64,000 bases of DNA from Candidatus Nitrosocosmicus oleophilus (GTDB taxonomy: Archaea > Thermoproteota > Nitrososphaeria > Nitrososphaerales > Nitrososphaeraceae). Shown piece after piece: positions 4,778 through 6,352 of this stretch; position 1 is the first letter of the stretch, and every line of letters starts with the position of its first letter. The translations under genes were made by a program, and so were the position numbers. The notes below the pieces were generated by a model. That model ran no database searches, was not told where the DNA came from, and worked only from the letters and a program-made list of their open reading frames with translations. The stretch lies in NCBI RefSeq assembly GCF_000802205.1, contig NZ_CP012850.1, forward strand, positions 1,922,001-1,986,000. Reading direction: 5' to 3'.

Positions 4778-6352
4778 ATGGTTGCTGGAAAAAGAATTGT
4801 GCTAACTGCCGATCGTAGTTTGATGACCAACTATAGAGGTAATTTTCTTTATGGGTTCATTGCATGTGGGCCATACGAACTTGTTCCTGAATTTGTTTTT
4901 GATAAACTTTTTTGCCCAAGTGTTGAAACTGATAAGAATACTGGCGAAATCAAAGTTGCCCAATGTGGCTTACGTCGTATCGAAAGTGCACTAATTCGAG
5001 AATACGATAAAAGTGAGGTATTTCTAGCCCATCCGGAAATGTTAGAAAAATGTATTGGACCACAAACCAAAGTTGTAGGAATAAATGTCATGGACCCGTT
5101 AGGAATGGCTCCGGTTACCACGACGATGTCACCTGAAAAATTATCTTATGTGGCAATGAAATTTAAAAAAATGTGCGCTTCAATCATTCAATTAAAAAAG
5201 AAATATGATTTTAAAGTTGTTGTTGGAGGTAATGGGTCTTGGGAATTAGCCAAACCTGAAAGGATGAAAATTCACGGAATTGATACCGTAGTTATAGGTG
5301 AGGCAGATGAGTTAGCATTGGATTTGTTCCATGACTTAGAAGCTGGGGACGCACCCGAACTCCTTCATACATTTGTGCGCAATATAGAAAATATTCCCGT
5401 TATCCGTGGACCCACTATCAACTCATTAATTGAAGCGATGAGAGGTTGTGGACGCGGTTGTGATTTTTGTGACGTCAATAAAAGATCTAAAAAAGACATT
5501 CCATTAGAGAGATTGCAAGAAGAAGCTAAAATAAACATAAAATATGGTTTCGATTCAATCTGGCTGCAGTCCGATGAGATGTTACTTTATGGTTGCGATA
5601 ACAAAGATTTTGTTCCAAACCAAGATGCGATTCTAGGAGTCTGGAAGGGTCTCAAATCGATAGGAGCCAATTTCGTCGGTACTACACACATGACTTTGTC
5701 CGCCGTTGCTTCATCACCAGATCTGATAAAAAATATATCGCAGGTTAATGATATGGAAAACAATGGTCGCTGGCTTGCAACCAACCTCGGAGTTGAAACT
5801 GTTGCCCCGCGAATGGTAAAAAAACACCTTGGAGTAAAAACGAGACCTTTCCAACCAGAAGAATGGGGATCAGTTGTAAGAGAGGGATGCAAAATACTCA
5901 ATCAGAATCATTGGTTTCCAGCATTAACATTAATAATTGGATGGCCTGATGAAACACCCGATGAGACTCAATATACTATTGATTTGATCCAGGATTTCAG
6001 ACAAATGAATATGAGGGGATTGGTCGCTCCATTGTTGTATCAGGATTTCTCTGAGAAAAATTCAATGCACTTTGGAAATTTAAACGAATCACAATTTGCA
6101 CTCTTTTGGACATGTTGGCAACATAATCTTAGGGTAATAAGCGATATTATACCCATAATTATTCGTAACAAATCTTACGGACCTGCGATGAAGGTATTCA
6201 TGGCAATGCTTATAAAATTTGGAACATGGGCCATCATGAGATATTTACGTGGGCTTTCTAAAGGCTTATTTGAAGGCAGACCTGCTGAAGATATTGTTGC
6301 AAAGTATGTGAGACCGCGTTCTGTCACCGCTCCCATGCCTCCAAAATTATGA
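4778..6352 (+). CDS. B12-binding-domain radical SAM protein
   Basis: A 524-residue enzyme. Residues 1-200 form a cobalamin-binding-like Rossmann domain (VVGINVMDPLG, VVVGGNGSWELAKP, IDTVVIGEADELA). The radical SAM cluster motif is C224-x3-C228-x2-C231 (CGRGCDFC), followed by a TIM-barrel segment and LIIGWPDETPDET. The last 90 residues are hydrophobic and basic, suggesting membrane association. Such enzymes use a [4Fe-4S] cluster and S-adenosylmethionine to make radicals on unreactive carbons. Its size, the LTADRSLMTNYRG opening and the archaeal source resemble the archaeal tetraether-lipid radical SAM enzymes (GDGT ring synthases GrsA/GrsB). That is inference, since many other radical SAM reactions share this layout. 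It appears monocistronic. Confidence 0.85.
   Translation: MVAGKRIVLTADRSLMTNYRGNFLYGFIACGPYELVPEFVFDKLFCPSVETDKNTGEIKVAQCGLRRIESALIREYDKSEVFLAHPEMLEKCIGPQTKVVGINVMDPLGMAPVTTTMSPEKLSYVAMKFKKMCASIIQLKKKYDFKVVVGGNGSWELAKPERMKIHGIDTVVIGEADELALDLFHDLEAGDAPELLHTFVRNIENIPVIRGPTINSLIEAMRGCGRGCDFCDVNKRSKKDIPLERLQEEAKINIKYGFDSIWLQSDEMLLYGCDNKDFVPNQDAILGVWKGLKSIGANFVGTTHMTLSAVASSPDLIKNISQVNDMENNGRWLATNLGVETVAPRMVKKHLGVKTRPFQPEEWGSVVREGCKILNQNHWFPALTLIIGWPDETPDETQYTIDLIQDFRQMNMRGLVAPLLYQDFSEKNSMHFGNLNESQFALFWTCWQHNLRVISDIIPIIIRNKSYGPAMKVFMAMLIKFGTWAIMRYLRGLSKGLFEGRPAEDIVAKYVRPRSVTAPMPPKL

Follow-up and report, generated by a model that had tools for sequence, protein, structure and literature searches.

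Ammonia-oxidizing archaea have crenarchaeol as their marker lipid, and the isomer of crenarchaeol is one input of the TEX86 paleothermometer. One gene in a 64,000-nucleotide stretch of the Candidatus Nitrosocosmicus oleophilus genome (hereafter, the window, meaning the whole stretch that was analyzed) had been presented in a preliminary description as a candidate tetraether-lipid radical SAM enzyme like the archaeal GDGT ring synthases (Grs), and it raises the question of which Grs type it represents and whether it could close the cyclohexane ring of crenarchaeol. A 2022 review expected Thaumarchaeota to have a GrsA homolog plus another Grs, unidentified, for the C-11 cyclohexane ring (PMC9385802), and the gene for that ring was still termed unidentified in 2026 (PMC12909067). 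A characterized thaumarchaeal Grs was not found in the literature that we searched, mostly open-access journal papers.

The window gene is genuine and under strong purifying selection. Its open reading frame runs from an ATG to a stop codon with no internal stop (Table 1) and encodes 524 amino acids, in line with the roughly 520 residues first given for it; the opposite strand of the same interval holds many stops, and the source genome is a single contig of 3,430,706 bases. Compared with the closest congener, the gene has 148 of its 165 base differences at third codon positions and a dN/dS of about 0.013. A 99% identical ortholog occurs in a Candidatus Nitrosocosmicus record, and orthologs across ammonia-oxidizing archaea have identities of 74–98%. 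Across two families, 68 of the 79 ortholog loci keep the convergent downstream gene of 111 amino acids next to the Grs gene. Because the upstream NUDIX gene and the downstream FAD/NAD oxidoreductase gene are kept in Nitrososphaeraceae only, they provide no operon argument, and gene neighborhood was dropped as a functional clue, the only widely kept neighbor being the 111-amino-acid gene of no known family.

Table 1 Coordinates of the Grs-family gene, its predicted domains and residue changes, and associated genes (positions are those of the window).
Feature	Position	Strand	Basis or remark
Grs-family radical SAM protein, ammonia-oxidizer-specific clade	4778..6352	+	ORF and translation, searches, trees, AU tests; stop codon within the coordinates
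Predicted N-terminal Rossmann/B12-binding-like domain, residues 1-210	4778..5407	+	AlphaFold2 model; Foldseek matches MgmA, MiaB, TsrM
Predicted radical SAM core, residues 211-420	5408..6037	+	PF04055 at 219-404; model
CGRGCDFC, residues 224-231, putative ligands of a single [4Fe-4S] cluster	5447..5470	+	Cys invariance in 147 homologs
K239, replacing the Arg of almost every other Grs group	5492..5494	+	Clade-specific fixed change
Residues 340-343, E-T-V-A; E-T-G-S in other Grs groups	5795..5806	+	Alignment
Two long hydrophobic C-terminal helices (predicted), residues 437-497	6086..6268	+	Model, hydropathy
Convergent neighbor, 111 aa	6465-6800	-	No Pfam match
P0002-type paralog	Beyond the window, same genome		Second Grs gene

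An AlphaFold2 model of the protein, built from 44 aligned homologs, has a mean pLDDT of 90.7 and a pTM of 0.89. Pfam Radical_SAM scores 36.5 bits, above its cut-off of 29.5, and C224, C228 and C231, all within the cluster motif CGRGCDFC that had been pointed out at the start, are the sole invariant cysteines among 147 aligned family members. Because only the cysteines of this motif are invariant, the protein probably carries one [4Fe-4S] cluster. The C-terminus, which had been called hydrophobic and basic, is predicted to form helices at residues 437–462 and 469–497 with a GRAVY of 0.68 each, the second holding five K/R and zero D/E; in the model, these helices are likely a membrane anchor or a lipid channel. 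The same features are on record for GrsA, whose C-terminus is described as a pair of elongated hydrophobic helices and which most likely has a single cluster (PMC11186832).

The B12-like N-terminal domain of the preliminary description agrees with the predicted fold. As modeled, the N-terminal fold is B12-domain-like, and the best PDB matches of the model in Foldseek were the cobalamin enzyme MgmA followed by MiaB, AprD4, TokK and TsrM; a solved Grs structure was not met among the structure-search matches. The Pfam B12-binding profile, on the other hand, reached only E 0.18, far under its cut-off, the DxHxxG motif was absent from the first 200 residues in all 147 family members, and nothing in the sequence points to B12 binding. 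Many cobalamin-dependent radical SAM enzymes lack DxHxxG, however, and the protein may still bind cobalamin.

The GrsA and GrsB loci were matched in a 38-genome search, in a Sulfolobus-type genome (G071; 2,225,959 bp) that we take, from its length, to be S. acidocaldarius DSM 639. Two of its loci, one at 1,353.6 kb and the other at 199.4 kb, which we assume to be GrsA and GrsB, respectively, from locus-tag order, position and the roughly 30% identity between the two groups, match the window protein near full-length with E values of 1e-56 and 1e-69. The protein is about 28% identical to the verified GrsA and GrsB. Among NCBIfam models it comes nearest to the one for a B12-binding/radical SAM family, TIGR04013 (5.7e-14, under the model's cut-off), which is also the closest NCBIfam family for both the GrsA and the GrsB locus, and the Pfam and NCBIfam profiles of all three are alike in kind. 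We recognize the Grs family by full-length homology to GrsA and GrsB (at the loci so assigned), a single CX3CX2C cluster with no auxiliary cluster, and two long hydrophobic C-terminal helices, and the window protein has each of these. Judged by sequence, then, it is a member of the GDGT ring synthase family, as the preliminary description had proposed.

Two other identities were tried and rejected. The possibility that the protein would cluster with an unrelated family such as the methylthiotransferases, raised beforehand, did not materialize: the MiaB-type protein of the same genome is a separate gene that matches it at E 0.0015 over 71 residues, as opposed to the near full-length matches to GrsA and GrsB, and the MiaB/RimO model TIGR00089 scores 38.9 bits against a cut-off of 251. 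Nor is the protein Tes, since it has no match to 7tol at E values up to 1; the Tes of this genome is another gene (G000:C1:824100-825806; 7tol match 2.4e-127).

Trees of 111, 87 and 59 rows, none with an inferred root, agree in placing the window protein in a clade composed solely of ammonia-oxidizer-family sequences (support 100/100). Adjoining it are proteins 42–49% identical from Nitrosocaldus-type, N. gargensis-sized and related genomes, and this nearest-relative group also includes proteins from some families without amoA (L173, L175, L176 and L238). Next outward in the tree is a clade of the own-genome paralog P0002 and other homologs, and GrsA and GrsB lie beyond a branch with support of 100/100 in the 59-row tree and 100/99 in the 87-row tree. 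In AU tests on the 59-row tree, the grouping of the window clade with GrsA, from which it is a separate clade in the trees, was rejected (p 5.5e-7), as was its grouping with GrsB (p 1.5e-50). The stems of both ammonia-oxidizer clades are long in the same tree, at 0.47 and 0.63 changes per column. The subfamily question that had been left open thus receives a phylogenetic answer: as placed by these trees, the window gene is neither GrsA nor GrsB and has its own clade, restricted to ammonia oxidizers. Because the nearest relatives are found in thermophilic ammonia oxidizers and in non-ammonia-oxidizers, the window clade appears to have split off on the ammonia-oxidizer stem.

Two further observations came from the same sequence set. 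The closest relative beyond the ammonia-oxidizer clade is L238 (JACQPO010000111.1; 48–49% identity), from a groundwater MAG labeled Euryarchaeota. Nitrosocaldus-type genomes and related ones (L116, L117 and L118) have two different Grs genes in tandem, of which the downstream one falls in a divergent third group that some Nitrososphaeraceae (L119 and L120) also have.

We surveyed 300 genomes of the order, in which AmoA matches fell in four families only (f1, f2, f3 and f5) among the rows listed. By our own count, among the matches listed, 212 of the 223 genomes of these amoA-bearing families have an ortholog of the window gene, the remaining 11 being drafts that are 72–96% complete. The corresponding count for the other genomes of the order, again among the matches listed and with genomes beyond them assigned to families by genome numbering, is 0 of about 77. 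The strongest matches outside the amoA-bearing families (G399, G407 and G479; E 1e-136 to 1e-151, 44–47% identity) are placed outside the window clade by phylogeny, and beyond the order, in a 397-genome draw of the phylum, identity reaches at best 39–40% among the matches listed. The distribution of the window gene goes back to a single origin with vertical inheritance afterwards and therefore represents one event, not many independent correlations.

Crenarchaeol has been demonstrated solely in ammonia oxidizers (PMC12909067, 2026), and its producers include Nitrosocaldus and Nitrososphaera (PMC6805073). A comparison of gene presence with lipid profiles had been suggested, and a window-type gene is indeed present in the crenarchaeol-producing ammonia-oxidizing archaea. 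The P0002-type paralog has the same distribution pattern, so that presence in crenarchaeol producers with absence elsewhere holds for both genes, though few of the other genomes of the order have known lipids. Tes was found in the Grs-less genomes tested; within the order, several genomes have Tes but gave no Grs match under the thresholds applied (G280, G413, G431, G427, G422, G397, G405 and G408), and for these we predict ring-free GDGTs. In G260, Tes occurs twice, at sites some 8 kb from each other, and one copy carries an in-frame TGA (G260:C1:1063462-1065135 and 1071479-1073137).

Copy number, obtained from a family-profile search of genomes, followed a regular pattern in Nitrosopumilaceae, where complete single-contig genomes have two Grs genes, with the window type and the P0002 type represented once each; the P0002-type gene of one genome is in two separated pieces (G330), and the window-type match of another contains one TGA (G298). 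Nitrosocosmicus relatives also have two Grs genes, the third, weak match in the source genome being the MiaB-type protein, while five Grs genes were found in a genome that we take to be N. gargensis (G316) and six in one that is presumably a Nitrosocaldus (G179). The P0002 type has its own insertions and fixed changes, and against the Sulfolobus GrsA locus it scores slightly higher, and is slightly more identical, than the window protein. In G392, a second P0002-type copy (L143; G392:C1:2348700-2350900), 73% identical and carrying an in-frame TGA close to the 3′ end, accompanies an intact one elsewhere in the genome. Two Grs types per complete Nitrosopumilaceae genome fit a two-enzyme route to crenarchaeol, in which C-7 cyclopentanes and the cyclohexane ring are made separately.

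The window clade departs from the rest of the family at otherwise near-invariant positions, with the changes P62Q, K67R, G216S, R239K, D267E, G342V and S343A, of which K67R and D267E are common to the clade and its sister group. V occupies position 342 in 29 of 33 clade members and A position 343 in 24 of 33, and the clade is also fixed for K235 and W389, positions at which L predominates elsewhere, apart from the Y of GrsB at 389. Within the radical SAM core, the window clade is changed at five near-invariant positions, the P0002 type and GrsA at one each and GrsB at two, raw counts that come from groups of unequal size and depth. These core changes are suggestive of an altered pocket. The aligned Nitrosocaldus-family ortholog retains G342 and S343, and because this is a crenarchaeol-producing lineage, the changes at those two positions would not be needed for the cyclohexane ring.

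We propose that the product of the window gene is very probably a GDGT ring synthase, acting on Tes-made tetraether lipids to close rings in their biphytanyl chains. Beyond family, clade, distribution, copy number and predicted fold, we infer the lipid substrate, the ring closure and the division of labor. In the proposed mechanism, the CX3CX2C-bound [4Fe-4S] cluster would cleave SAM. The two C-terminal helices would keep a biphytanyl chain at the membrane, where the 5′-deoxyadenosyl radical would abstract H from one of its unactivated CH groups; once another H had been abstracted, two sp3 carbons could join. Tes would be the upstream enzyme, encoded in the same genome, and the window protein and the P0002-type paralog would together form the crenarchaeol route, one making the C-7 cyclopentanes and the other the cyclohexane ring.

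As to which of the two makes which ring, we slightly favor the window gene over the P0002 type for cyclohexane, with the P0002 type making the C-7 cyclopentanes, and hold this assignment tentatively. Nearly all ammonia oxidizers examined carry the window gene and no relative outside them does, and it is therefore one of two clear candidates for the cyclohexane enzyme; the two ring types needed (PMC9385802) match the two Grs types of each complete Nitrosopumilaceae genome, and both the split on the ammonia-oxidizer stem and the larger number of core changes point the same way. The P0002 type is nonetheless an equally good candidate, given its same distribution and its own insertions and fixed changes, the Nitrosocaldus-family ortholog keeps two of the residues that set the window clade apart, and the core-change counts are subject to the unequal sampling described above. 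The converse assignment, with the window protein as the GrsA-equivalent C-7 cyclopentane synthase and the P0002 type making the cyclohexane ring, is almost as likely. Family membership and the presence of cyclopentane rings in ammonia-oxidizer GDGTs argue for it, as does the occurrence of the sister group in non-ammonia-oxidizers, where crenarchaeol has never been demonstrated (PMC12909067); against it, the window clade does not group with GrsA in the AU test, and it is the P0002 type that is slightly closer to the Sulfolobus GrsA locus.

Because the clade stands apart from both verified enzymes, at low identity, its reaction could differ, and a published caution holds that remote homologs of Grs could be radical SAM proteins of other kinds (PMC8473941). 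A different radical reaction on tetraether lipids, such as cross-linking or chain modification, with all rings made by the P0002 type alone, would suit this distance and the precedent of Gms and Tes, radical SAM proteins for other lipid C–C couplings (PMC11186832), but we consider it unlikely: the closest characterized relatives are ring synthases, and Gms differs in architecture and has auxiliary clusters (PMC11186832), whereas only the three cluster cysteines are invariant here. A methylthiotransferase or cobalamin-dependent methyltransferase, to which MgmA and MiaB as best solved structural neighbors might point, is highly improbable, as the models for those families all score below their cut-offs, the MiaB-type protein is a separate and barely matching gene, the window protein lacks both the auxiliary-cluster Cys set and DxHxxG, and the Foldseek matches reflect the common B12-like plus radical SAM architecture.

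The boldest reading of the window gene is a scenario, offered as a possibility that we would not yet back at even odds, in which a thermophile ring synthase became the crenarchaeol cyclohexane enzyme on the ammonia-oxidizer stem through remodeling of its radical SAM pocket. If true, this would date the origin of the trait to that stem. The search for the cyclohexane enzyme within the Grs family narrows to two gene types per Nitrosopumilaceae genome, of which the window gene is one.

The Grs family of ammonia oxidizers was already known, because two clusters, GRS-A and GRS-X, had been reported in ammonia-oxidizing archaea (PMC11442133); a Grs gene of N. viennensis, NVIE_028400, has been named GrsA (PMC12542715). 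Like the genes of this study, GRS-A and GRS-X are present as two clusters per genome and are ubiquitous in ammonia oxidizers; one or the other most likely includes the window gene. That study covered mainly marine genomes, whereas ours includes soil and thermophilic families as well, and the window clade is here set outside GrsA and GrsB and found to be absent from the non-ammonia-oxidizers of the order. Thaumarchaeal Grs homologs had also been described as a group apart from the thermophile GrsA and GrsB (Zeng et al. 2019, as cited in PMC8473941), where, in the account given by the citing paper, the two ammonia-oxidizer types are not separated. What is new here is the placement, restriction, copy number and residue signature of the window clade.

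Among enzymes of known function, GrsA and GrsB resemble the window protein in near full-length homology, domain order, the single cluster motif and nearest NCBIfam family, and GrsA also in the long hydrophobic C-terminal helices described for it; they differ in their low identity, in falling in separate clades whose joint grouping with the window clade the AU tests reject, and in having nearly always R, G and S at positions 239, 342 and 343, where the window clade is changed. Tes/MJ0619 (7tol) is likewise a radical SAM enzyme that couples sp3 carbons of the same lipids, yet it is a separate gene in this genome and its structure is unmatched by the window protein. MgmA (9ccb) and MiaB (7mjv), the best solved matches, share the B12-binding-like N-terminal domain and the radical SAM core, but they transfer methyl or methylthio groups to protein or tRNA, are only 13–15% identical, and belong to families whose cut-offs the window protein does not reach.
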